From: Nautilus pompilius
Taxonomy: Eukaryota; Mollusca; Cephalopoda; Nautilida; Nautilidae
Assembly (NCBI GenBank): GCA_018389105.1
Contig: JACATO010000049.1
Span: 744,001-808,000 of the forward strand
Reading direction: 5' to 3'
DNA: 64,000 nt
Made by a program: the position numbers and the translations under genes. Positions 2,558 to 58,990 of the stretch are shown one piece after another; positions within the stretch are counted from its first letter, which is position 1, and every line of letters begins with the position of its first letter. The notes beneath the pieces are model-generated. The model was not told the origin of the DNA, did no database searches, and saw nothing but the letters and a program-made list of their open reading frames with translations.

Positions 2558-4769
2558 CAGGGTGGTCAAACATACGGCCCGCGGGCCGTGTGCGGCCCTC
2601 AGTACCTTAAAATGTGGCCCGCGAGGTCATACTAAATTTTAAAAAATTTATCCTTCTTTAAATAAATTTTTACACATTATAACAAAATTATATTTATATG
2701 AATTATTTTCGCATATATAGTAATTAATTTCCGTTAATTTTGAAGATTTTTCGTATTCATAAATCTCATTTTAATTTGAATTAGTATCAGTTTCGTGTCA
2801 TGGCGTCTAATGTATCAAAAAAGTGAAAAATTGACTCTGAACATCGTAAGTTTAATGCAGACTGGACATATAAATATTTATGCATCGAGGAAAATGGTAT
2901 TATTAAATGCCTTGATTGTCATCAAACTATCAGCTGCTCGAAAGAATATAATGTGAGTCGTCATTATAAAACGCATGCTAAAAAATATGACAATGTGATA
3001 GGAAAAGCTGCTAGACTGGTGCTTGTGCAACAATTAACTAATAAACTTACAGCACAGAAGAATATTTTTAAGAATTTTAAAATCATAACTCCTACTGCTA
3101 GTGTTCAGTATTTGGATGCCTCCTATCGTGTATCTTTATTATTGGCTAAAAAGGGTAAATCCTTTTGTGCAGCAGAGATTGTTAAAGAATGTGCTATAGA
3201 AATGGCAAAATCACTTGGAGAAATGGAAGTTGCTGATAAATTTAAAAACGTTTCTCTATCACACCAGACTGTTTCTACCAGAGTTCAAGATATTGACTTA
3301 CAACTGGAAAAAACTCTGAAAGACAAAATAGCTAATTGTGCATATTGGTCAGCTGCTCTTGATGAAAGTACAGACAACTGTGACATATGTCAACTATCTA
3401 TTTTTATTAAAATTATTGAATACAATTTTAATGTGACAACTGAACTCTTGGATCTGAAATCAATGTCTGGAAGAACTACAGGAAAAGATATATTTGAATC
3501 ATTTGACATGGTAGTTGGAAATTTTATAAATGAAGATTTTAAATATGGAAAACTTTCTTCTGTCTGTACTGATGGAGCACCTGCTATGTGTGGCCAGAAA
3601 ACTGGATTTGTGGGTGAGCTGAGAAAAAACAATATTTAGTTCCAGTACACCACTGTATAATTCATCAAGAAGCTCTTTGTGCCAAGTCTGCCAGACTGCA
3701 TCCTGTAATGAAGTCTATCACTAAAATGGTTAATTTTATTGTGGTGGTGCTCAAGCTTTAACTCACAGAAAATTCAGAAATTTCTTAGAAGAGGTAAATG
3801 CTGTTATCCAGATTTGTCACTTTTCTGTGATGTAAGATGGCTAAGTGCTGGAGATTGTTTGAAGAGGTTCTTTGCATTGAGAAATGAAATTCTTGTTTTC
3901 TTTGAAAGTGAAATATCTGCTAACACTACTCAATTTGAGAATGACCTGAAAAATCCAGATTTCATATCTGCATTAGCTGTTTTGACTGACATTACCTCAT
4001 ACCTGAATGTTCTGAACAAACAAATTCAAGGAAGAAATCATGATATCTGTTATCTTGTGGGTAAAATTGATGCATTCAAATTGAAGTTGAACAAACTATT
4101 CATTCCACAATTAAAGGAAAACAATTTGACACACTTTCCAAGCTGCAAGGAAGTATTTGCTGATAAAGAAACTGACTTTTCAGATTACGTTTCCATACTT
4201 AGTGATATTTCTACTGAATTTGAAAAGAGATTTCAGGACTTCCAAATAATTCAGGATGACCTTAAGATACTGAGCAATCCCTTTACTATAGAAGTGGATA
4301 AGGCACCTGCTCAACTGCAGTTGGAATTATGTGAGCTGAAAGAAGATTATTTTCTTCTTTCTCAAAACCTTGACAATCCATTAGAATTTTGGAAACTGGT
4401 AAATGCAGAATCATATCCTGAACTAAATAACTTTGCACTTCACATGCTTTCAATGTTTTCTTCAACCTATGTTTGTGAAAGCAGCTTCTCTCTTATGAAC
4501 CAAATAAAGTCAAAAGAGAGAATCAGCTAGATGATGAAACACTAGCTTCATGTGTCAGAGTTGCACTAACTGACTTAGAAATTGATTTTGTAGAATTAGT
4601 TAAAAACAAAAACCTCAAATTTCGCACTAGCCACTGTAGTAAATACAATTTTCTATTAGTATAAGTATTAATAAATATCTTTTTTAATCAAACTTTTTTG
4701 GAGAGTGGCCCTCACTTGCATAAACCTGATCAATAATGGCCCTTTGCTTATTTGAGTTCGACCACCCTG
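2558..4769 (+). mobile_element. hAT transposon with intact ends and target duplication
   Basis: The element begins CAGGGTGGTCAAAC and ends with the inverted counterpart GTTCGACCACCCTG, a 14-bp terminal inverted repeat with one mismatch. It is flanked by a perfect 8-bp target duplication, TTGTAGAA, at 2550-2557 and 4770-4777; 8 bp is the hAT signature. The left end continues with ACGGCCCGCGGGCC, a motif common at hAT ends. The 2.2-kb body holds one plus-strand transposase gene in two long open pieces. It sits in an intron of the plus-strand gene proposed for 1-11 kb. The intact ends suggest a fairly recent insertion, but the transposase is already interrupted, so it could move only with help from another copy. 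Confidence 0.93.
2800..4530 (+). pseudogene. hAT transposase (BED-finger, GTF2IRD2/FAM200-like), broken
   Basis: The reading starts at an ATG at 2800 but meets a TGA at codon 9. A BED-type zinc finger follows (CLDC, then HYKTH), then the RNase-H-fold transposase region. Recognisable hAT motifs are the DESTD block near 3360, SVCTDGAPAMCG near 3560, VRWLSAGDCLKRFFALRNEI near 3830 and the C-terminal dimerisation block (SSTYVCESSFSLMNQIKSK) near 4460. The long open pieces are 2953-3639 and 3739-4530; between them lie a stop and a frame change. The family resembles the transposases that gave rise to the vertebrate GTF2IRD2 and FAM200 proteins. Apart from these lesions the frame is well kept, which suggests a young element. 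Confidence 0.9.
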
Positions 4770-8100: not shown

Positions 8101-10662
8101 TAGTGTTGGCCTGTGTAACTGGTGGCTATCATTAGAGAGCTGAACTAGCCAACAAATTCAAATGTTCTCTTACATTTTTTAAGTACATTAATTAGTTCTG
8201 CTCTATATATTATTCTAATTAATTATGCCAATAATATGAGCATTTTTTTCTAAAGTTTGATATTTAATGACATTAATTCATTTTACATTTGATAGCTTGC
8301 TATTTAGCCAGCCAGGAGACTTTACTGACAAAGACCAACAATGACATACTTTATTTTGACTGGTTAAACTTATGGCTTCACAAAGATCTTGTTTTATTTG
8401 CGTATTCCATCAGCGTTAACTCAGCCTCTGAGAGAAAATTTAACTCCACCCTTAATCAGTATCACACAGTGAACCTCTTTATTATCTACCTAATTTTAAC
8501 CATTTTTCTGTTTGTAAAAGCTTCATTAAACTAGAATTTCAAGCTGCATACAGTAGATTAATGTTTAGAAGAAGAAAATTCTTAATGTAAAACCTATCAT
8601 TTGAATGTTTTCCTATCCCTGCTGTAACAATTTGATTATCTCAAATTTTACTTACATGTGTGCACTAATTCTATACTGTTTGACACGTGCATAAAGTGTG
8701 GTATCTGGTAGGAGCACCTGCTGTGTTGTTCAGACATATTATATTTTTAGGTCAGATTCCATTGGACAACAACCAATTTGCTACGAGGTAAAAGCACATG
8801 TCTTAGACTAATTCGAGTATGCTGTTTTAAAATCAGAATTAACCCAATACATAGACAAGACATGGGCACCACATGTGTTCTTCCGTTTGTACCTCCGGAC
8901 TGACTCAGTGGTTGAATTGGAAACAAATGTCGATGCCATTCGCCATGCCAGTGGTGTGGCAGGAGCCAAAGAATCATGTGAATGACTGTTACTACTTCAT
9001 GATTAAAGTAGCTGGTTTCACTAAGAAAAACAAAAACAAGCTAATATATCCCGATTGCAAGTCAGCAATAAAACCTGTGCTACATTACAAGGACAATTCA
9101 GACCTGTGCCATCAGCTACTGCTGACATTGAAAGTGATGATAGTAGTGATAATTCTGATGAAACTGAGCTTTACAAATCAGCAGAATTGGAGTCAAAGAA
9201 ACATTCTCACCTGATCAACTTAGAAGAGTTAAATAACCTTGTCAAGAACCTGGAGCTGTCTAAGCAAAAGACAGAACTGTTGGGGTTGCATTTTCAAGAG
9301 TTGAACTTGTTGGCAGAAGGCATGAAAATTTCTCATTTTCCAGTCGAGGCCTAACCCACTGGGGCTGGCTGCACGGGAAGTTTTCAAACTGGTAGTCCAC
9401 AGTTTGTTTGGGAACCACAAAGCAGACAACTGTGCCGAGTTGGTTCACAACATGATAAAAGCCTTTGAAGAAATGGGTTGCCGTATGTCCCTGAAGTTGC
9501 GTTTTCTTCATTCACACTTGGATTTCTTCCCAGCCAACCTTGGTGTTGTGAGCGATGAGCGTGGAGAGAGGTTCCACCATCACATAAAGGCCAAGGAGAC
9601 TCGCTATCAGGGGAGACGCAACTCCAACATGATGGTGGACTGTTGTTGGTTTCTTCAGAGACGAACCATTGCTATTCACAAGTGTAAAATCAAGTACTTA
9701 AAGCATTTAATGTATGTTTTATACACTGTGTTTGAGCTTGTGGACAACAGCTACTGTACAGTATACAATGTGTTTATATTGTGAAATGAATTTGGTTTTT
9801 GAAATTTTGCAATATTTTTGATTTATTAATAAATAAGAACTGGAAATGTCATTTTTCTGTGACTACAAATCCTGACGGGCTGGGTCAGTTCTGACTTCAG
9901 ATTTGGAATCAGCTGCTTGATTTGATAAAGAACACCTACATATACCTCAGTAGCAGGCGGGAAGTTATTTTTTGTTGCCCAGTATTATCATTGGTGACTT
10001 AGTCCGTTTTCCCAGGAGTATTCTTTTAGTTGCTACTGTAAGGTTGTGCACAGTATTCAGTTTTGTGCCCAGTGTGTGATGTAGTTTCATCTTCCTCCTT
10101 AAACAAGCAAACATCATTTAATGCACAGTACCTACGGATAATAAAAGACTGTCTTAATGTTACCAAATGTAGATGCATGGCAGCCTGCTTTGGTGGTACC
10201 TTTTATAAGAGTGATGGTGGACAGCTGTGTAAATCTGTGACTGAAGAGTATCAAATCACTATGATTTTGAAAGCTACACTGTTAAGAACTCATAACTGTG
10301 TATTATTTTTTTAAAAATTGTTGCAGATGGAAAAGTTGGAGCAAGTTCTTCCTGATTATAAAAGGAAGCAAAAGGAAAGAGTGGCATCTGTAAGTTTGTA
10401 TCTCTTATATTGAAACATCTGGATACCTTCTTTTTTTGTTGTTTCATTTTGTAGGATTATTTTTATTACATTTAATATTAATAGCAAGACAAGGGTTCAG
10501 TACAATTTTCATAATGCATCCAACAGGTTGTTTTGTTATTTTGTTTGTTTTCTTAAGGAAATGGAAAGGATGGACACACAAGTGGACTTTCTGTTGGACC
10601 GTCTGGGCAAAGCCAAGTCTGCATCATGGCAAGGTGTTGTAAAGCGGTCGCCTCTCTGGTGA
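5182..10662 (+). CDS. 3' end of an unidentified coiled-coil protein gene (five exons)
   Basis: Five segments with AG/GT borders join in phase: 5182-5246, 6279-6316, 7593-7672, 10327-10389 and 10558-10662, ending in TGA. The last three give KPIVRYEKRKEESERIRRK and MEEISSR, then MEKLEQVLPDYKRKQKERVA, S, then EMERMDTQVDFLLDRLGK and AKSASWQGVVKRSPLW. The first two give IPFNGKIPENTETN and PYNLEIIPLHYNV. The tail is highly charged and heptad-like, so a C-terminal coiled coil is likely. Acceptors are good (TTTTTTTTTTCAG before 6279, CTTCTCTTTCAG before 7593) and donors are consensus (GTACGT, GTAAGT, GTAAGT). Four consecutive phase matches make a chance assembly unlikely. The N-terminus lies further left or outside the window. 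I cannot name the family. A second transposon lies in the intron between 7672 and 10327. Confidence 0.6.
8762..9989 (+). mobile_element. deleted DNA-transposon copy A, GERFH multicopy family
   Basis: The left end (GGACAACAACCAATTTG) and right end (GTTGCCCAGTATTATC) match those of copy B at 32421-33582. The ends are loosely inverted (CTGGGCAACAA against CTGGACAACAA in copy B). Coding remnants read left to right. First come an acidic serine stretch (ESDDSSDNSDE) and a conserved helix (INLEELNNLVKNLELSKQK). A central deletion near 9350 follows, then the C-terminal block with FLHSHLDFFPANLGVVSDE and GERFHHHIKAKETRYQGRR. I recognise this block from a protein family present in many copies in invertebrate genomes, but I cannot assign it to a named superfamily. 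The roughly 650 bp shared with copy B differ at only about a dozen sites. Target duplications are not resolved. Confidence 0.75.
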
Positions 10663-32420: not shown

Positions 32421-33582
32421 CACTGGGCAACAACCAATTTGCTACTGAGGTAAAGACTAATTCGAGTACGCTGTTTTCAAACCTGAAATCAGAATTAGTC
32501 CAATACGTGAGGATTTTTAGTTACAGAAATAAATGGAAATCTAATGTTTTATTATTTTGAGTGTTCATTTCAGCACTGTGTACACACAGCGGGCTACGCT
32601 GGAGACACACACACACATGCATCTTGTGCTTGTGGAATAGATGAGATGATGCAAATCACTATAGGATCAAAGAATGGCCATCAAGAACAGACCATGCTCC
32701 AGGAAAATTCAGTGTGCAACATGTGCCACTGGTACATCTGCAAAGAATATTTCTACCACCACTGCTATAAAGCTGGGCCTAACGAGGAGCTTTGTAAAGG
32801 CGATGAGTGTTGAAGGTGTGGGATTTCTTTATCTGAAAGAAAAATGTGGAGCGATTTTAAACTGATGCCAAGTTGAAGACTGGAATAATTGTCGGACCAC
32901 AAACTCGTGATTTGTTTCCTGATCCAGTCTTCTGGTCGAGGCCTAACCCACTGGGGCTGGCTGCACGGGAAGCTTTCAACCTGGTAGTCCACAGTTTGTT
33001 TGGGAACCACAAAGCAGACAACTGTGCCGAGTTGGTTCACAACATGATAAAAGCCTTTGAAGAAATGGTTTGCCGTATGTCCCTGAAGTTGCGTTTTCTT
33101 CATTCACGCTTGGATTTCTTCCCAGCCAACCTTGGTGTTGTGAGCGATGAGCGTGGAGAGAGGTTCCACCATCACATAAAGGCCAAGGAGACCCGCTATC
33201 AGGGGAGACGCAACTCCAACATGATGGTGGACTGTTGTTGGTTTCTTCAGAGACGAACCATTGCTATTCACAAGTGTAAAATCAAGAACTTAAAGCATTT
33301 AATGTATGTTTTATACACTGTGTTTGAGCTTGTGGACAACAGCTACTGAACAGTATACAATGTGTTTATATTGTGAAATGAATTTGGTTTTTGAAATTTT
33401 GCGATATGTTTGATTTATTAATAAATAAGAACTGGAAATGTCATTTTTCTGTGACTACAAATCCTGACGGGCTGGGTCAGTTCTGACTTCAGATTTGGAA
33501 TCAGCTGCTTGATTTGATAAAGAACACCTACATATACCTCAGTAGCAGGCGGGAAGTTATTTTTTGTTGTCCAGTATTATCG
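32421..33582 (+). mobile_element. deleted DNA-transposon copy B, GERFH multicopy family
   Basis: The left end is CACTGGGCAACAACCAATTT and the right end GTTGTCCAGTATTAT. Reading the right end backwards gives CTGGACAACAA, so the termini are inverted repeats of about 11 bp with one mismatch. A second inner match, CTACTGAGGTA, occurs near both ends. The C-terminal coding block is open at 32873-33349: IIVGPQTRDLFPDPVFWSRP, then NPLGLAAREAFNLVVHSL, then FLHSRLDFFPANLGVVSDE and GERFHHHIKAKETRYQGRR. Upstream there is a short conserved piece, IKLGLTRSFVKAMSVEG, and the N-terminal half present in copy A is missing. Copies A and B are therefore different deletion derivatives of one parent. Confidence 0.78.
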
Positions 33583-34561: not shown

Positions 34562-35885
34562 CAGAGGTGCACAACTTTCCAACGCGGGCCACTTTCACGG
34601 GACACAAAAGTTCAGCATCCATTTGTACACCTTATAACATGAGATTTTCTTATAGACTTACTCAGATCAATTTGTTATATAGAATTATTCTACTTACAAG
34701 GATGTCAGTTACAAAAAAAAAAAGGGCCGTAGTCAGTGGGAGACGTTGCAGAGCTCCTCTGACACCAACTGGTTAATGTTGAGCTCCAATGAGGTGGTCG
34801 CAGCTCTGAGCACTGCCTGCGGATTATCATCTGTTAGTCTTGTTCGCAGGGGAGACTTGGTCATCTCCATTAAGGAAAACACTTGTTCACATATGTAAGT
34901 GCTTCCCAACATTGAGATCCATTTCTGTGCAATCGCAGTGATATTGGGAAACATGTGCCGGTCCAGGCCCTGATAGAATTGTAGAAGTGGCATCTCCCTG
35001 TGCTTACTCCTCCTCATCACTGCGGAGCGCTGGAGTTCAATCACTTCCAGCTGTACGTTACCAGGTACAGTTTCGGCATCCACAGAGGATGGATCTGCAA
35101 GTAGTCTGAGCGCAGCCTGTTCTTTCCTGAACTGCCCAGATCTGATGGTGAACGCCTGCTGCAGGTCTTCAAGCGCACAGCTGTGACGGCCCCCAGTTGG
35201 AATACTCGTACGAAAAGGCGTCTTGGCATGCTGGGAAGTGTGTCGGATTCCCTTTTTTTAAACTGGGTTGCAAAAAGTTTCGGTTTCATTTCAAATGTCC
35301 AGACGGCCTCAAACAAGTCGCAGATCAGTTTCTCTCTCTCCCCTGCAGTTTCAGGTTGAAATCATTCAAGTGTCCAGCGACGTCTGGTCTGTCAAAGAGA
35401 GATCCAGTCAGCGTCCTCCATGACGGAAGTGTCCTCTCCTCTCTGCTGTACAAACAGCTCGATTTCATTTCGCAGAGCAAAAGATCGTTTCCAAACAGTA
35501 CCACGGCTCAGCCACTTGACTTCTGTGTGATGGAGAACGTCTCCATCAGCTGCACTGACGGTCACAGCTCTACTGCCAGCCCCGTCCGCGGCGGCAGTCA
35601 TCGCTGTGACAATAGGACGCGACGGGAGGCGAGTAAATGGCGGCAAGAGAGGATCCAGCACAGGCACATGACCCGGCAGGTTACACAACCATTTAAGATG
35701 ACGAAAATATGAACGACAGAAAATATACTGATGATCAACACATTGGAAAACAACCACTAGGTGGCAACGTATCACATTTAACTAATTTACCTAAATGAGT
35801 TAGACGAGGCCGCTGTATGTTCTCATTTTGGCACATCCAGTGGCCGGCCGGGTCTGGCCCACGCACCGTGCGTCGTGCACCCCTG
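34562..35885 (-). mobile_element. hAT transposon, internally deleted (GTF2IRD2/FAM200-like)
   Basis: The left end CAGAGGTGCACAAC and right end GTCGTGCACCCCTG form a 14-bp inverted repeat with two mismatches. The flanks GTGTAGAC (34554-34561) and GGGTAGAC (35886-35893) match at 7 of 8 bases, a decayed 8-bp target duplication. The minus strand carries transposase pieces: HHTEVKWLSRGTVWKRSFAL and RNEIELFVQQRGEDTSV near 35500-35420, then QLEVIELQRSAVMRRSKHRE and STYICEQVFSLMEMTKSPL near 35050-34850, ending in the C-terminal block. At 1.3 kb it lacks the N-terminal half. It keeps many CpGs, unlike the 2.6-kb element. Confidence 0.88.
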
Positions 35886-43264: not shown

Positions 43265-46200
43265 ATGTCCGACCGGGATAAACTCTACGAGACCCTGAAG
43301 AACGCCAAAGACTGCAAGTCCCTGTTGAAGAAGAACCTCACCGATGAACTCTTCGAGCAGCTGAAGGATAAGAAGACCAAATTCGGCGGCTCCCTGGCCG
43401 ACTGCATCCGCTCAGGTAAACGAACCCCTCGTCTGATGTCCCCTCCTCCCCTCCAGAGGGTTAGTTAGTATAGTAGTAGTAATTAACGTGGCCCCCCTGT
43501 TTACTCCTTCCCTCTCGCTGACCCAGTTCTGTCTGTCTACCGGACCTCACGCGCTGATTCAGGGAGCAGGAGCAGGGACAGGGACGACAGCCAGAATAAA
43601 AGGTGTCAGCTCCGGTAAATCTGACCCCCTCCTAACCCCTCCCTGTCTGTCTGCCTGTCTGTCCTCACGTAGGCCCCTCTTTGTTCTCCACCACAAGGTG
43701 ACCTCCGTCCGTCCTTCGTCCTGTCGCCGACTGCGGTGAAGGTCATCAAATAATCTTACATAATAATAAGGGGGGGGTCGGCGATAACTGGGGGGGGAGG
43801 GGCGGCCCCTTCTGCGGGCTGTTGTGCCCAAATTTGTAAATCGGAAAGGCAGAAGCTATTCCTAATTATAGTAACAGCAGCTGGTTACCTTGGTTACCCG
43901 GGGGGGGGGGACCCGCCAGCATCCAGACGGCGTCTGAGCTGGAAGATTTACTGATTAAGAAGATGCCGACTCCCTACGCGCGACAGACAGACAGACGGGG
44001 AGGGCGGCTCGCGAGCTGACCCTGACCCCCGACCCTGACCCTGACCTTCTAAGGAGTCCTAAATTGATCCTTTATTATACTATAAAAGACCAGACCAGAT
44101 GAAAGGTGGGTGGGTGGCAGGAGCTTGAATTTAGGTTGTACGTCAATGATGATGTTGGGAATACACCACGTGCTCTCTGGCTCATAATGATTCTGTGATA
44201 GTCCAGCAGAAGTAGCAATGGTCCTCCTGTCTGTCTGTCCTCCTGTCCCTCCTCTTGTCCTCCTGTCTGTCCCTCCTCTTGTCCTCCTGTCTGTCCCTCC
44301 TCTTGTCCTCTTGTCTGTCTCTCCTCTTGTCCTCTTGTCTGTCTCTCCTCTTGTCCTCTTGTCTGTCTCTCCTCTTGTCCTCTTGTCTGTCTCCCCTCTT
44401 GTCCTCTTGTCTGTCTCTCCTCTTGTCTGTCTCCCCTCTTGTCCTCTTGTCTGTCTCTCCTCTTGTCTGTCTCCCCTCTTGTCCTCTTGTCTGTCTCCCC
44501 TCTTGTCCTCTTGTCTGTCTCCCCTCTTGTCCTCTTGTCTGTCTCCCCTCTTGTCTGTCTCCCCTCTTGTCTGTCTCCCCTCTTGTCTGTCTCCCCTCTT
44601 GTCTGTCTCCCCTCTTGTCTGTCTCCCCTCTTGTCTGTCTCCCCTCTTGTCTGTCTCTCCTCTTGTCTGTCTCTCCTCTTGTCTGTCTCTCCTCTTGTCT
44701 GTCTCTCCTCTTGTCTGTCTCTCCTCTTGTCCTCTTGTCTGTCCTTCAGCTAAATTCAAAGATGTTTGTGCAAACCTTTGTAATTTCAAATGTCCAGTTC
44801 TGGATTTTCTAAAACCTGATGGACTATTATTACCTGAGGGATGCTGTTCAGTATTTAACTGTTTTTTGTTTTTCTTTTAGTGCAAAGCAGTTTAAATGTG
44901 TACCTGGAATGTGCATCTCAATAACATTGGCTTGATTACCTAAGATCACTCATCCATAAAACCAAAGCATTCCAGGATTCCATGTCTTGCATTGTAAAAA
45001 CCAGGAGAATATAAAAGAAATGACAAACTCGCGAAAGAAATTTGATTTAAAATTTTCTGAAATGCCTATGGACGGTACCTGTGAAGACCAGGAAATTCTT
45101 TGAATGTATTTAGAGAAACAGTAAGAAGTAATCAAATGTGAAGACATTAAATTTTATACATAAAGAATTTTTTTCTTGTCAGTTTATCATAAATCTGACA
45201 ATGATCTGCGAGTAAATGAGTGCTATAATAATAACACTTCTAATGGGCTTTCTTTGTTTGGCTCCTAGCCGAGTGATTGTAATTCAGTGGCATGGTCTTT
45301 ATTTTATCAATGGTATCTCATGACTTGCTCAGTGATTTGAAATAGTTTAAATTAGTTCTGTTTTGATAGACATCTCTTTTTCCAGCCTCTGTTTTGTGGA
45401 AAACCAAAACTTGTAATTTAAAGTAACCAAGTACTGGCTAGTTTATTTTTGTTTGTATAACTTAGTCAAAACCCTTTTACTGTTCTAAGAATCTATTAGA
45501 TTTATTAGTTAAGATTTCATATTTATTATGAATGTCACACTAAACAAACTGGTTATCAAAAATACTTGTTGCTATTAACAGGCTGTCAAAACCTGGACAG
45601 TGGTGTTGGTATTTACGCCTGTGACCCAGATGCTTACACCGTTTTTGCACCAGTTCTTAATAAAGTTATCCAGGATTACCACAAGACATCTTCAGTGAGT
45701 CATCCAGAACCAGACTTTGGAGATATCGATAACTTGGAATTTTCTGACCTTGACCCAGAAGGAAAATTAATTGTATCAACCAGAGTCCGTGTGGGCAGAT
45801 CCCACGACAGTTTTGGCTTCCCTCCAGTGCTGACCAAAGAGGTAAGTAGACAGATAGTTAAAATTAACCTTAATCTTTACTGGGGGTAGCTTTGTGAAGT
45901 GGCCAAGAAAGTCTGCGATAGCCATTTGTATCTTTTTTAATACTATAGATATCACGGGAGGCTGGTTACTGGTCCACATTACTTCCTCTCTGTTTTATCA
46001 TTTTAACATGAAAGTGCACCTACCTGAGCAAGCTCTGTAGCAATCATGCAGTCTGATACCAAATCATTTCTTGGATGTAGAGGTTTCAACTCACTCAGCT
46101 GGTGAATTGGACCGGTCATGGAATGTTTGGTATTGATGGAAAGCACGAGATCTCTCCCCGCACCACCATCAGGAGTGGCTGCTGCTGCCGTTTGCTTCAT

Positions 46201-51090: not shown

Positions 51091-54000
51091 CTAAAAGGCA
51101 AATGAAATAAGGCTGACTGCTGTCTTGATGGTGATTCCCAATAGTGTCAGCAAACCGATGTATGCAAATGCTCCATGAACTCTCTTTTCAGGATCTAGAG
51201 AAAAGCAAGAAAAATTCACATATCACTAGTAGTAGTAGAGATTGACAATTTATTCAGTTTGAAAATGTGTAGTTTGGCACTTTACACAATTTTCCTCGCT
51301 TGCTTTCTCTCTGTCCTCCAGCTATAGTGTCTGCAGCCTGAGCTACCAAACTGATTTAGCAATAAACCATGCAGTGGGATGTGTACCATTCTAGGTCTAG
51401 TTAAGGGTTCTATGTACAAGAGGAGATTAAGTAGCATTGAAAATAGTGTATAGCGCAAAATCACTTTAAGAAAATGTTTCCAAAGAACACCTAACATGCA
51501 AAACCTACACGCAGTATAAGGATATGTACACATCTTTTCATAAACATTTAGAAAATTTTTCTGCCTTCTCTCATTTTAAAAACCTTATACATTAAGTAAA
51601 ACAATATGGGGTAACTGATATAAATTGTATGAATTTACTGAGAATAAAACATTTTCCCACAACTTAAAACACCATAAAGTTTGACAGAGGCATTGCTTGC
51701 TATATCCTGATAATGGGTGTAAATGACACCCTGTGGTTTTCATTACATTGAACCTTCATCTCATACTATATGCCAAGGCTTTAAAGTTCCAGGAGCACAT
51801 GGTTGCTGCCCAATGCACTTACAAAGCTCATCTTTGACATGTTCTATTGGATTGGGTCAGAAAATGAGCAGACTACAGAAGATGCTAACTTTCAAGAGGA
51901 AAATATCTATTTACAACCATATTTGCATGATGAGTCCTCTAAGTCAGCATAACACTGATATGGAACCAGCAGCAATGAGAAAGTTGGATTATTAGGAGGA
52001 GAAATCTGACAGTCTGCCAAAATTTATCCTCCCCCTTCCAATCTCATCCTATAGTGGTTATAGGTAACCAAATATTATTAGCAAATTGATTGAAAAACTT
52101 GAGACAAAAATTGGATCTTATCTAAATAACATGATTTTTCCTAATCTTTCATCAAAAAATAATTGGAAAAGTGAAAGTAGTTTTCAGATGAAATTCCAAT
52201 TCAGAAATTATTAATGTACATTTGTTCAGTTTACATAAGAAAACCTCAACTTAGCACTAGTAATTTTAACATCAGCAGTTAAAATTAAAATGTTAGAAAT
52301 AAAAAAAAGGCATCCTATTCTTTAAATTTCAGAAGATTCAAAGGAAGGAAATGAGTCCATAAAACATGTTTTGCAGAGTTGGCATTTTAAACCAGATGCT
52401 ACTTACTGGTTTTGGTTTCCATTTAATAAGTCTAAAAAGAAAGTAGAGAAAATACAGTTGTTAAAAGTGAGGCTTATCCACTACTTATCTCAAACAAACA
52501 TCTTGTATTGTTTTTTTTTTTTTTAATTTTTTATTATGGTTTCAATTTATTACTTTGTTCTTGGCTAAAATATTTTTTTTTTTACTGTTACTGCAACTCA
52601 CAGTGCTACAAGCTAATACTCCTAGCTTCATCCAATTACAAAGTGATAATAGGCAGTACCTCCTGAATAGTAGCCAAATGCATACACTATACGTCCCAGC
52701 ATCCAAATAACACCACAAGCAGCACTGAGTTTCTATAAAGATAAAAAAGAAGGCTGAAGCTATCTGTAAATTTTATAATCCAAAGCTGCACCACTTACAT
52801 CACTGAGTTAAAAACTGAATGGCTGGAATTCTACTATAAAGTATCAGAAAAAATTTTAATGTAACCTCAAATGTCCATATTTTTTCTAATAATCTTCATA
52901 ATATGTATTTAAAAATAATCGTAGAAGACTACTTCCGTAATATCTGTCTATAACCTGAAGAAGAAGAAAAAGAAAAAAAGCGAGAGACTCACTGGATACT
53001 GTAGACCTGAGAAAAACATCAGTACTAGAAATACTGGGTATCCCTCAAGACTGAAATTAGAAAAAACATTTATAACAACTTAAAGCATACAATCTGCATC
53101 TCTTCCTTTGTTAACTTAGCCCATAATTCCTAATCAGATTACTAAGTTCTAATTCGCGCAATAATTAAAGTGACTCTGAACACAATCCGAATCTGGTTTT
53201 AATCTGCCAATAATTTAGAAAACTTTCCCCACAATGTAACACTATCAAAACTAAGAATTCCCGATCATTACCAACTGCCTTCAAACATTTAGCTATTACA
53301 TCTGTCAGATGAAGTAAAACAGTAAGTCTGCCAGTGTTTGTTAGCAGTTCCAAGTCAGATTCTTTTGCTAACTTATAGATCTCAGACAACTGTTAAGTTT
53401 TCAGTGTTGCATTGTGGGAAGGTTTTCTAAATTACTGGCAGACAGACAAACCATTACATGCAGCAAATGCTTGTGGGTAGACTTTATAAAAACTAGATTT
53501 AATTAATGTTGACTTTTTATTTTAGTAAACTTTTCAACAAAACAGAATAAAGGGTTACCATCTCATTAACTACAAAACTGTTGTTTCTTATAGATAGGAT
53601 GCTATTCCTTTAAAAAAACAAATTTTTTATAATGTTATTAATCCTTGCTAAAGAGGCAGGAAGCAAACTGCTGAGAGAGAGAGAGAGAGAGATTAACACA
53701 GTTTCTAAATGGATTTTCTTGCTTGTTGACACCTTTGTTCATGTATGTTATCCTTACTTAGAGAGACTGAGCTTGCTAATACTGAATTTGGAGTTGTTGT
53801 TTTAACAGAAATCCAAAAATGTGTCCGCAGAGGTAGTTTATACCTGAAGATTCCACAACACATTAGGGGAAAAAACTTTTAGATCAGTTAATGAACCAAA
53901 GAGAAATAGGGAAAGTCAACAACTAAAATCTAATAGTGGATTTGACAGTAAAATTTGCAACAAAAACTAGTAAACAAAACGTTTTTTTCGTTTAAACCCA

Positions 54001-57000
54001 ACAGAGAAAAACAAGTGAATGTATATTTCTAGCATGGATCAGATTTTAACTTAATTTGTAGAAAATACTAGGTTAGATGCTAACATTAGTTGAACTGGCT
54101 TAAGCATTCTGATGGACTCTCTGGATACAGTTAAACATAGCATGTCTATCACCACACGTGGCTGGATACTGACTTACGTGTTCTGATGGACTCTCTGGAT
54201 ACAGTTAAACATAGCATGTCTATCACCACACGTGGCTGGATACTGACTTACGTGTTCTGATGGACTCTCTGGATACAGTTAAACATAGCATGTTTATCAC
54301 CACACGTGGCTGGATACTGACTTACGTGTTCTGATGGACTCTCTGGATACAGTTACATAGCATGTCTATCACCACACGTGGCTGGATACTGACTTACGTG
54401 TTCTGATGGACTCTCTGGATACAGTTAAACATAGCATGTCTATCACCACACGTGGCTGGATACTGACTTACGTGTTCTGATGGACTCTCTGGATACAGTT
54501 AAACATAGCATGTCTATCACACACGTGGCTGGATACTGACTTACGTGTTCTGATGGACTCTCTGGATACAGTTAAACATAGCATGTCTATCACCACACGT
54601 GGCTGGATACTGACTTACGTGTTCTGATGGACTCTCTGGATACAGTTAAACATAGCATGTCTATCACCACACGTGGCTGGATACTGACTTACGTGCTCTG
54701 ATGGACTCTCTGGATACAGTTAAACATAGCATGTCTATCACCACACGTGGCTGGATACTGACTTACGTGTTCTGATGGACTCTCTGGATACAGTTAAACA
54801 TAGCATGTCTATCACCACACGTGGCTGGGTACTGACTTACGTGTTCTGATGGACTCTCTGGATACAGTTAAACATAGCATGTCTATCACCACACGTGGCT
54901 GGATACTGACTTACGTGTTCTGATGGACTCTCTGGATACAGTTAAACATAGCATGTCTATCACCACACGTGGTTGGGTACTGACTTACGTGTTCTGATGG
55001 ACTCTCTGGATACAGTTAAACATAGCATGTCTATCACCACACGTGGCTGGATACTGACTTACGTGCTCTGATGGACTCTCTGGATACAGTTAAACATAGC
55101 ATGTCTATCACCACACGTGGCTGGATACTGACTTACGTGTTCTGATGGACTCTCTGGATACAGTTAAACATAGCATGTCTATCACCACACGTGGCTGGGT
55201 ACTGACTTACGTGTTCTGATGGACTCTCTGGATACAGTTAAACATAGCATGTCTATCACCACACGTGGCTGGATACTGACTTACGTGTTCTGATGGACTC
55301 TCTGGATACAGTTAAACATAGCATGTCTATCACCACACGTGTTGGGTACTGACTTACGTGTTCTGATGGACTCTCTGGATACAGTTAAACATAGCATGTC
55401 TATCACCATACGTGGTGGGTACTGACTTACGTGTTCTGATGGACTCTCTGGATACAGTTAAACATAGCATGTCTATCACCACACGTGGCTGGGTACTGAC
55501 TTACGTGTTCTGATGGACTCTCTGGATACAGTTAAACATAGCATGTCTATCACCACACGTGGCTGGATACTGACTTACGTGCTCTGATGGACTCTCTGGA
55601 TACAGTTAAACATAGCATGTCTATCACCACACGTGGCTGGATACTGACTTACGTGTTCTGATGGACTCTCTGGATACAGTTAAACATAGCATGTCTATCA
55701 CTATACATGGTTGGGTACTGAAAAGAAAAAAAAAAGAAACTTTGTTTTTTTGCTTCCATGATAAATTATTCAAGTTATCAGCAAAGCAAAGAACTGAAAA
55801 CTAATATATGAGCCGTGAGGAAGATGCATTTTTAATTATGGAAGTCTAGCTACCCGACATTGGATATCTCAGAAAATATTTCAAATTAAAAAAAAACTGA
55901 CAATGGATTTTTGGCTTATCAGAGATTATGAGTTTTAATGTTCCAACTAGGGCTTGTGTTTGATTTATTGTGGTTCCTATCATAGTTAATACATGTTTCA
56001 TTAAACATTTGCAAAAGTGGCTATATATAAGTGAGCAAATCTACCTGTCCCAGAAGAGCATGCAAGTTCTTCTGAAGCTGACTGTTATTTTTCTAGACTT
56101 GACCAGTTTTCTTTAATCATTAGTAATCAATTGAAGCATAAACTACAAATATCTGCCACCCACAAGCATACATTTTAGTGATGCAACGCAATAACGCAGA
56201 ATGAATTATGCATTTTCTTTTTTGGGTTGGACAATGTGCAAGTAGAATCATTTAAGGGAATTTGCCCTTTATCAAACGGAAGATTATTTTTTGAAAAAAT
56301 GTTTCATAAAAAGTGAATCAAAATTTTCTCTCTGGTGAGTGTTGAAGGTGCTAATAATCTTTCTTCAGTGGCTGCCAAACTAGTCAATTACCTGACCTCT
56401 AATGTAGACAGGTGGTCCTCGAACACAGACAAATACCAATGCAGATTTGACAACATTAGTGATGATACATTTTAAATATTAACAGCAGCAGAGATACGTT
56501 CTTGCTCACATCTAAAACTACATGGTAATAAAAAAATGCATACCCCTGTAAAATTATTCCCATTGGTACTTATATGTATCATTAAAGTGAGAAGACAACT
56601 TTTGAAACCCCAACTAATTTATTTCTTAGTCTAGGTCCCCTAATATTAACAGATATGATAAGGTTAAATTTTTTTTTAAATTGGCACAACTTTTTTTGTC
56701 ATATATAATCGGATTAAATTGTTAAATGTATAGAGAGCATAGATACATTACATCAAAATAACAGAATTAATTACAATGATACATCAATCTATAAATAGAT
56801 CAGATTGTATTTGTAGATAATAGTTAATATCAATGTAAAATAATGCTAAGAATCAGGTTAACTAAGACAGGCTGTAAATACTCCTTGATTCAATAACTTT
56901 TATCCAAGAAGATACACAAGATCTGAATTAAAGAGCACAAAGATGAGCAGCTGGATTCACAGAGTGGATGGATCTTATCTGGTGCCTGTTCATAACAGAT

Positions 57001-58990
57001 TCAGAAAAAGGGCAGGAATCAGTTATTTAAAGAATATCTCTTTGTGTTGGAGTAAGAACAGACTATATAGCAATAGTAAGAAAATCATAATAGTTTACCT
57101 TCTGCTGTTAACACAAGCTAAATCTCAAGCTAACCGAAGGCTGGTCTTCATATTTCAAAAAGCACTCAAACATCTGTGCCAATGCAGCTAAATGCAATTT
57201 AACAAAACTGGATCCAATGCAAAATCTATTAGGCATGTGAGAGAGAGACATCAGTAAGTAAAGAGAAATAAATGCTACAGTAATTACAAAAGAAAAAAGG
57301 CAAACAAACATGATTAAACACAAATGGATAACACTTCTGCACCAGATTACATCTTTCTAAAAAATATACAAAAAGAACTTCTGGATGTGCGTGTAAACCG
57401 CTGGCCATTTTGTATCATTATTCTGCAACAACAACGAAATTTTAAAAAAAATGTTCTTCCAGGTGAATGGACAGCAAAGAATATTTAAAAAGAGTGATAA
57501 AAATATTTAAAAATTAAATGTAACACATTTTTTCAGTGATGCAACTAAGATGGATGATCCTTTGAAAAGTTGATGTTCCATAATTTATTATTGTTAATAA
57601 TAATACAGGTAAGTTGTAGACATGGGTACTTAAAAATGTCAAATCTAAACAAGCTATCAAAATGGTTCAACAAGTGGAAAATGGAATATTTATGGCACGG
57701 AAGCCAAAACAGAGCCGGGGGAGAGCTCTGGCTATTGCATATGAGAAGCCTGGCCGTGTTACCCAGCTATTCCACACATCCTGCGGAGGGTCGGACCCTT
57801 GTCACACAAACCAGATTCTCGTCTGATCAGACAGCAGTTTTCAAATGGAAGAAAATAAATCAGATTTCCATGGAATTTACTCCTTAAGCAAGCAAACAAA
57901 GGGGTATCACATCCATCCATCAGAGAGCCTCATCTATCTGTAAACTCGCCAAAGTTAGCGGGGACAGGCAAGGATAACAACACGGGAAGGTGGGGGCGGC
58001 CATAACGACACGGTGAAGGGAGGGGCAGCCATAACGACACCGGGAGAGGGCGGCCATAACGACACGGGCAGGGGGGGGCGGCCATACGACACGGGAAGGG
58101 AGGGCAGCCATTACGACGCGGGAAGGGGAGGGGCAGCCATAACGACACCTGGAGAGGGGCCATACGAGGGGAGGGGGGCACCACAGGACACGACACAGGG
58201 GGGGAGAGGGACGAGGGAGAACACACCAGATTACGACGCGGGAGGGAGGGGCGGCATAACGACACGGGAGAGGGCGGCCATAACGACACGGGCAGGGAGG
58301 GGCAGCCATAACGACACGGGAAGGGGAGGGGCAGCCATAACGACACCGGGAGAGGGCGGCCATAACGACACGGGCAGGGAGGGGCAGCCATAACGACACG
58401 GGCAGCCATAACGACACCGGGAGAGGGCGGCCATTACGACGCGGGAAGGGGAGGGGCAGCCATAACGACACCGGGAGAGGGCGGCCATAACGACACGGGC
58501 AAGGAGGGGCGGCCATAACGACACGGGAAGGGGAGGGGCAGCCATAACGACACCGGGAGAGGGCGGCCATAACGACACGGGCAGGGAGGGGCAGCCATAA
58601 CGACACGGGAAGGGAGGGGCAGCCATAACGACACGGGAAGGGAGGGGCAGCCATAACGACACGGGAAGGGAGGGGCAGCCATTCGCGGGCGAGAGACTTA
58701 AAGCGAAAGTTTAAGGAGCGAGAGAAGAAAGCAGGAATTCTGCAGAATGGTCGGTTATAATAAAACCGTTTATTATTCGCCCCCCAACCCCCTTTTTTTT
58801 AAAGAGTTAGCAGGGAAGAGGCGAGGCGGCGCCACCATTTCTCGTCCAGCCCTACCTTCACCTCGAACTTCTTGCGCGCCCGCATGACGTTGTAGGCCAT
58901 CCACTGCAGCATGAAGATGGTCGCAACGAAAACCAGGAGGACGAAGCCGTAGCCGTCGGGTAGAAGGGCCAGAGCGGCGGAAGCAGCCAT
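51091..58990 (-). CDS. MGST3: microsomal glutathione S-transferase 3 (MAPEG family), complete
   Basis: Five coding exons on the minus strand: 58990-58856, 55717-55653, 53050-52993, 52732-52660 and 51194-51091. They join in phase to 144 residues. The protein is a four-helix membrane enzyme of the endoplasmic reticulum or outer mitochondrial membrane with glutathione transferase and peroxidase activity. It starts MAASAALALLPDGYGFVLLV; helix 1 runs to about residue 33 and is followed by the basic loop MRARKKFEVK. The family hallmark FNCIQRVHQNTLE comes next, then EGYPVFLVLMFFSGLQYP, then AACGVIWMLGRIVYAFGYYS, DPEKRVHG and a last helix to LISFAF. Length matches the family (about 150). The start at 58990 has a good context (GGCGATGGC); an in-frame ATG at 59062 is less likely. 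Exon 2 is the founder of the tandem array at 54107-55720. The gene faces arginine kinase tail to tail. Confidence 0.95.
53672..53692. repeat. (GA)n microsatellite in MGST3 intron 2
   Basis: About ten GA dinucleotides on the plus strand, between the exon-2 array and exon 3. Confidence 0.9.
54107..55720 (-). repeat. tandem array of 22 copies of MGST3 exon 2 (74-bp unit)
   Basis: Twenty-two head-to-tail units of 74 bp (a few of 72-73). Read on the gene's strand, each is the 65-nt exon 2 followed by GTAAGTCAG, so the unit border coincides with the exon borders. The copy nearest exon 1 (55653-55717) has a true acceptor and codes YPTMYSDRHA; most others code YPATCGDRHA or YPTTCGDRHA, and all go on to MFNCIQRVHQNT, or HQST in three copies. 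Four copies have small deletions: 2 nt in the unit starting at 54329, and 1 nt in those at 54475, 55288 and 55361. Twenty-one copies keep GTAAGT. The copy farthest from exon 1 (54107-54180) reads AATGCTTAAGCCAG where the donor should be. An in-frame TAA lies inside each ACGTAAGT, so reading through more than one copy would end the protein. Confidence 0.95.
55653..55717 (-). CDS. MGST3: MGST3 coding exon 2, founder-like copy of the array
   Basis: A 65-nt exon with a strong acceptor (a tract of about 20 pyrimidines, then CAG, at 55718-55740) and donor CAC/GTAAGT. It codes YPTMYSDRHA then MFNCIQRVHQNT, matching the MGST3 family segment between the first membrane helix and helix 2 (human YPIMYS...FNCIQRAHQNT). 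It is the only array copy with TMYS, the family-like sequence, and with a normal polypyrimidine tract. It is therefore the copy most likely to be spliced. Its donor is identical to those of the copies behind it. Confidence 0.92.
57958..58684. repeat. GC-rich minisatellite in MGST3 intron 1
   Basis: Variant units of about 25-28 bp, the commonest being AGCCATAACGACACGGGAAG then GGAGGGGC; a shorter type has CACCGGGAGAGGGCGGCC. About 27 units, more divergent toward the left. Every unit has several CpGs. It begins about 170 bp inside intron 1, just behind exon 1. The G-rich strand is the template for MGST3. Long open frames on both strands across it are artefacts of the repeat. Confidence 0.93.

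Follow-up and report, generated by a model that had tools for sequence, protein, structure and literature searches.

A minisatellite probably born from exon 2 of the Nautilus pompilius MGST3 gene, with 21 equal splice donors behind one acceptor

The DNA analyzed here (the window) is a stretch of 64,000 nucleotides from Nautilus pompilius (GenBank assembly GCA_018389105.1, contig JACATO010000049.1, positions 744,001 to 808,000; coordinates below are those of the window). On its minus strand it carries a gene for MGST3 in which exon 2 is followed by 21 further, nearly identical copies of itself. The structure is real and unusual, and it is most likely a decaying minisatellite of exonic origin in which 21 equal splice donors lie behind a single acceptor. 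We consider it quite probable that this exon-born array resides in intron 2, that copies 2 to 22 are decaying ballast and that only copy 1 is used. Copy 1 is very probably the working exon, a prediction made from the sequence, since it is alone in having both a polypyrimidine tract and the conserved YPxMYS motif.

Tandem Repeats Finder reported the array at 54107-55721 with a period of 74, 21.9 copies, 97% matches and a score of 3069, a score that excludes chance as its cause. When cut at the splice edges the array resolves into 22 tandem copies, copy 1 included (54095-55717, minus strand), the number given in a first-pass annotation of the window. Alignment also agrees with that annotation on the unit, which consists of the 65 nt of MGST3 exon 2 plus 9 nt (GTAAGTCAG) in the orientation of the gene. 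Such head-to-tail units of 74 bp fall within the size range of minisatellites (roughly 10-100 bp). Eighteen copies measure 74 bp, three measure 73 bp (copies 5, 6, and 17) and one measures 72 bp (copy 19); GTAAGTCAG terminates every one of copies 1 to 21, and neighboring copies are 9 bases apart throughout the array. Copy 1 (55653-55717) is followed on the minus strand by its donor and spacer, GTAAGTCAG (55644-55652), and then by copies 2 to 21 (54169-55643), each with its terminal GTAAGTCAG and without a polypyrimidine tract. Copy 22 (54095-54168, minus strand) ends in TTAAGCCAG, where TTAAGC stands in place of the donor GTAAGT, and is followed by the TTCAAC of unique intron. Its last 12 bases are decayed. 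Because 8 of these 12 are as expected, a match equalled by 160 of the 63988 minus-strand 12-mers of the window (array copies included), copy 22 is interpreted as a full-length copy whose donor is dead. The array end at 54107 proposed earlier was merely the end of the close match. The 22 copies represent 11 sequence types, with a mean pairwise identity of 96.8%.

The copy number is that of one assembly, and tandem arrays are a known weak spot of assemblies. Nevertheless, it is very unlikely that the copy number or the entire array results from misassembly: the window contains no N, the copies fall into 11 types, and each of the two edge copies has changes of its own.

Outside the array the MGST3 gene is otherwise intact. 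Its five exons, all on the minus strand, were located by tblastn and their splice sites then set by eye. Exon 1 (58856-58990; 135 nt of coding sequence from the ATG, donor GTAGGG) is followed by exon 2, that is, by array copy 1 as the predicted working copy (55653-55717; 65 nt, coding for YPTMYSDRHAMFNCIQRVHQN(T)), exon 3 (52993-53050; 58 nt), exon 4 (52660-52732; 73 nt) and exon 5 (51091-51194; 104 nt including the stop codon), with introns of 3138, 2602, 260, and 1465 nt between them. Exons 1, 3, 4, and 5 joined with copy 1 give an open frame of 435 nt, and the 144-aa protein belongs to the MAPEG family (Pfam PF01124, 92.4 bits against a cut-off of 23.4). Among 186 candidate proteins, 64 were related to it at E ≤ 0.001. 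The first named relatives, all from molluscs, were MGST3 of Octopus sinensis (62% identity over 94% of the query), of Argonauta (66% over 77%) and of Mytilus.

The genome searched comprises 728 Mb in 2558 contigs, with the window on contig 49. The MGST3 protein produced 27 matches, of which 25 fall in the MGST3 gene and its array and two elsewhere are weak (C331, E 1.3; C2550, E 6.9). A search for the MAPEG family as a whole gave two matches, both below the cut-off of 23.4, one in the MGST3 gene and the other on C1675 (18.6 bits, E 0.83). No second MGST3 gene was found in the 728 Mb when short exons were searched singly, a procedure that a diverged paralogue could escape. The 74-bp unit, used as a DNA query against the genome, found at least 21 matches (a lower bound), and all 21 lie inside the array.

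Splice signals distinguish copy 1 from all the others. The scores given here are rough. The array has one strong acceptor, the polypyrimidine tract and CAG in front of exon 2 (55718-55739, minus strand), in which 17 of the 17 scored positions are pyrimidines; its score of 13.8 is the third highest among 482 AG sites in the gene, and the acceptors of exons 3, 4, and 5 score 4.7, 11.0, and 12.6. Copies 2 to 22 are preceded by the end of the preceding copy plus GTAAGTCAG and thus offer a bare CAG only, with 7 pyrimidines in 17 positions and a score of -3.7 or -3.0. The acceptor of copy 2 ranks 349th of the 482. The donors, on the other hand, are all alike: GTAAGT stands at the exon end in 21 of the 22 copies, copy 22 being without it, and scores 8.0 in each (9.7, 7.7, and 4.1 for the donors of exons 1, 3, and 4). 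Outside the array, intron 2 has no GTAAGT, and the gene strand has 16 in the remainder of the window. The earlier claims that the unit borders coincide with splice sites and that the copies keep a perfect donor stand for the donor side, copy 22 excepted; on the acceptor side the border is no more than a bare CAG in copies 2 to 22, and only copy 1 has a polypyrimidine tract.

The unit also repeats E-box and ACGTG motifs, and a cluster of these could conceivably act as a transcriptional enhancer of MGST3 or of a neighboring gene. The array contains 20 of the 28 CACGTG of the window (in 20 of copies 2 to 22; copies 1 and 5 have none) and 22 of its 30 plus-strand TACGTG. However, a tandem repeat multiplies any motif that its unit happens to hold, and most TACGTG arise just where the exon end meets the donor, so that this role appears extremely improbable.

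The coding content of the copies points in the same direction as their acceptors. Only copy 1 keeps YPTMYS. At the MYS positions the 64 homologs have M in 57 cases, Y in 63 and S in 49, and the T, C, and G that the array encodes there occur in none of the 64. Eighteen of the 21 extra copies read TCG for MYS, and in the remaining three (copies 5, 6, and 17) the frame shifts in the motif or ahead of it. Frame-breaking indels are present in four extra copies, these three and copy 19, in which the break lies beyond MYS; the reading frame, which had been described as kept, is kept in 18 of 22 copies. Among the 17 unbroken extra copies there are only four different peptides (12, 3, 1, and 1 copies), all without MYS. 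Compared to copy 1, two of nine exonic point changes are silent (codons read by hand, the differences in columns 6 and 8 being counted as part of the deletions of copies 5 and 6), which is no better than the 19 silent ones among 65 possible transitions. Because MYS is lost, frames are broken and silent changes are not in excess, we see no sign that copies 2 to 22 have been kept as coding exons.

These data bear directly on the possibility of a mutually exclusive or serial choice of exons, as in Dscam, by which the copies would vary the protein. Of the 21 copies with a donor, 17 (copy 1 included) give the full-length frame when used singly. A jump over one copy, from donor to acceptor, would amount by simple arithmetic to an intron of 83 nt (9+65+9), and a branch-point-like TTAAC is present in each unit, 37 nt before the next copy at the one junction inspected. 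However, at that junction six AGs lie between this site and the final CAG, the acceptors of copies 2 to 22 are as poor as described above, and combining copies rarely preserves the frame: it is kept in 1 of 19 cases when copy 1 is joined to one non-adjacent later copy and in 38 of 1330 sets of three or four copies from copy 1, adjacent ones included. With just four peptides among the unbroken extra copies, none of them with MYS, we regard exon choice as highly unlikely. It follows from the frame outcomes and the few peptides that protein variety is not what the array offers; as far as can be predicted, it would provide little of it, and at most unproductive mRNA.

In the splicing pattern that we infer, exon 1 would be joined to copy 1, the sole copy with a complete acceptor, and the donor of copy 1 to exon 3. 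Copies 2 to 22 would be removed with intron 2, probably have no function and decay as any minisatellite does. The donors of copies 2 to 21 would then persist through the youth or the homogenization of the array rather than through selection; invariance of the spacer across copies 1 to 21 is not significant (P 0.21-0.25). Acceptor 1 combined with donor 1 yields the full-length 144-aa MGST3, and this is the only productive donor among the 21. With any of donors 2 to 21 (exons of 139 to 1540 nt) the result is a 67-residue product in 20 of 20 cases, because translation running through the end of copy 1 meets ACG-TAA. Mistaken use of these donors would thus generate stop-containing mRNA.

The same outcome could be exploited rather than tolerated. 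As an unproductive-splicing device, the 21 donors would compete behind one acceptor, and a share of the transcripts would end at donors 2 to 21, read the in-frame TAA and be degraded, so that copy number would tune MGST3 output. The single productive donor fits such a device, as does the ordinary strength of the donors, which lies among those of exons 1, 3, and 4. So does a variable number of tandem repeats (VNTR) in human CBS that has a similar donor-repeating layout and was reportedly described by Lievers in 2001 under a title linking it to reduced CBS activity. Against it, conservation of the donors is not significant, and copy 22 has lost its donor. We consider this device, as deduced from the anatomy, fairly unlikely. 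The RNA structure predicted over 55570-55790 (copies 1 and 2 plus upstream sequence) is not unusual (z-score -0.03), and the window has no Rfam match at gathering scores.

An inert minisatellite born from an exon and a source of splice variants were the two options raised by the first-pass annotation. The former is favored by the acceptors, the loss of MYS and the frame breaks. The latter can be retained in part, because unproductive variants are allowed by the anatomy, whereas different proteins are disfavored by the poor acceptors, the absence of MYS from copies 2 to 22 and the frame kept in only 1 of 19 joinings.

How such an array could arise is suggested by its edges. At the start of copy 1 the sequence reads TTTTCAG/TA, and where copy 22 gives way to unique intron it reads CAG/TTC (the slash marking the edge); these junctions fit CAGT microhomology. 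With one CAGT across the acceptor edge of the exon and another in the intron just after GTAAGT, slippage or unequal exchange between the two would duplicate exactly exon 2 and the first 9 intron bases (GTAAGTCAG), and the array would then have expanded to 22 copies. The unit borders would resemble splice borders because CAGT occurs at the acceptor edge and again behind GTAAGT. This route is a likely and simple origin for them.

Traces of later growth and exchange may also be recognized. Copy 1 differs from the array consensus in five columns (3, 7, 11, 14, and 16) and is identical to it in columns 17-74. The letters of copy 1 are retained in a nested way, in copy 5, then in copies 6 and 11, and then in copies 4, 8, and 13 (columns 7-8 of copies 5 and 6 being ambiguous owing to their deletions), as if the changes had come successively while the array grew. 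The copy types spell the word 'cdbc' in copies 7-10 and again in copies 12-15 (permutation P 0.02), which hints weakly at duplication of several copies at once. Differences from the consensus are confined to columns 63-71 in copy 22 (54095-54168) and to columns 3-16 in copy 1 (55644-55717), and the chance of a cluster as tight as these, selected post hoc, is about 0.003 for either copy. This clustering fits an exchange that homogenizes all but the outer edges of the array. One hypothesis is that the array also exchanges sequence with the 3' part of the working exon, in which case selection acting on that exon would extend into the array. With the stretch fixed, a further candidate, clustering of the variable columns in the first 26, has P values of 0.007 (copies 1-21) and 0.019 (copies 2-21); it was dropped as evidence because P rises to 0.24 in copies 2-21 once the position of the stretch is left free.

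Exchange of this type is part of another scheme, a brake tunable by copy number, in which the length of the array would determine what fraction of MGST3 transcripts is degraded. At the same time, sequence exchange of copy 1 with the array would keep rewriting the 3' part of the exon and spread selection into the array. The identity of copy 1 with the consensus in columns 17-74 is consistent with the exchange component. The scheme as a whole is, in our judgment, unlikely.

Several observations weigh against the view that copies 2 to 22 are ballast and copy 1 alone is used. Nothing in the sequence forbids the later donors, all of which, at 8.0, score between exon 1 (9.7) and exon 3 (7.7). Duplicated donors often show a preference for the one nearer the downstream exon, a choice that would be unproductive here. 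The real acceptor of exon 3 scores just 4.7 in the same rough tables that condemn the acceptors of the later copies, and upstream of copy 1 the branch-like site is weak (TTTAT, 45 nt) and followed by two AGs. Pfam does not separate the copies, since a protein with the array consensus copy scores 90.5 bits against 92.4. The confinement of the differences of copy 1 to its first 16 columns is not what independent decay predicts, and the donors may be under selection despite the P values of 0.21-0.25.

Other repeats occur in the window. A GC-rich 28-bp minisatellite (57974-58682) lies in intron 1 of MGST3. Its derivation from an exon was considered and rejected: the best match to exon 1 plus upstream sequence is only 8 bases (ATGGCTGC), and because shuffles (206 of 1000) and window tiles (103 of 966) do as well, this minisatellite is not exon 1-derived by the match test. 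A CT-rich minisatellite of 16/24/72 bp (44243-44743) is located between two recognizable exons of an arginine-kinase-like gene on the plus strand, the exons of which match Argopecten best. From the positions of these repeats, the MGST3 and arginine-kinase-like genes both have intronic minisatellites. Farther away, the open reading frames at 2953-4530 (plus strand) and 34733-35083 (minus strand) resemble what we take to be pieces of hAT-type transposases, and those at 9404-9784 and 32873-33349 have a near-identical long peptide in common, which makes this a repeat with two or more occurrences in the window.

Most work on how splicing chooses among equal donors has used constructed minigenes with two or three of them; a search of open-licence papers on donor choice gave no result. 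The array is a natural test of donor choice in the gene of a conserved enzyme, with 21 identical donors at steps of about 74 bases behind a single acceptor and only the choice of the first leading to full-length protein. Normal production of MGST3 would require the first donor to be marked by its position. In addition, the array shows how a minisatellite can arise from an exon, probably by way of a CAGT that recurs at the splice borders.

Dscam-type clusters are a familiar case of a gene in which one coding exon is present in several copies. In the MGST3 array, by contrast, there are no real introns that could be spliced between copies, only 9 bases. A working acceptor in addition to a donor is found in copy 1 (13.8) and in none of the other 21 copies (-3.7 or -3.0, by rough tables). 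Coding constraint and different peptides are replaced by near-identical, decaying copies with four frame breaks, loss of MYS in all 21 extra copies and four peptides among the 17 unbroken ones.

The array can also be compared with other minisatellites. De Grassi and Ciccarelli described how minisatellites reshape human genes as internal tandem repeats in segmental duplications (PMC2812944). Like the MGST3 array, these are genic minisatellites able to lengthen exons or introns and to change splicing; however, their units average 30 bp with 4 repeats, and no whole-exon unit was seen in the accessible text (PMC2812944). Earthworm metallothionein loci likewise contain duplicated exon copies absent from the transcript, and the family also has intronic minisatellites, although the text available does not state that these are exon-derived, unlike the array of MGST3 (PMC12783039).

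The closest precedent is the 31-bp VNTR of human CBS, which spans the exon 13-intron 13 boundary (PMC1395315). Its name, c.1444_1467+7(16_21), indicates a unit of 24 nt of exon plus 7 nt of intron in 16-21 copies; the copies differ by single bases, and copy number varies among people (PMC2630376). In both cases the unit joins the end of a coding exon to the start of an intron and each copy can carry its own donor, as 21 of the 22 MGST3 copies do. Because the CBS VNTR already repeats an exon end with its donor 16 to 21 times, the earlier remark that such an arrangement had not been described must be reduced to the use of a whole exon as minisatellite unit, for which we found no described case in the open-licence literature, itself a weak negative. 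The CBS unit, as far as its published name tells, includes only 24 nt of its exon, while that of MGST3 holds all 65 nt plus 9 nt of intron, and MGST3 copies, unlike those of CBS, also end in a bare acceptor-like CAG, so that each could theoretically be recognized as an exon. The new point with respect to CBS is thus the whole exon as the repeated unit.
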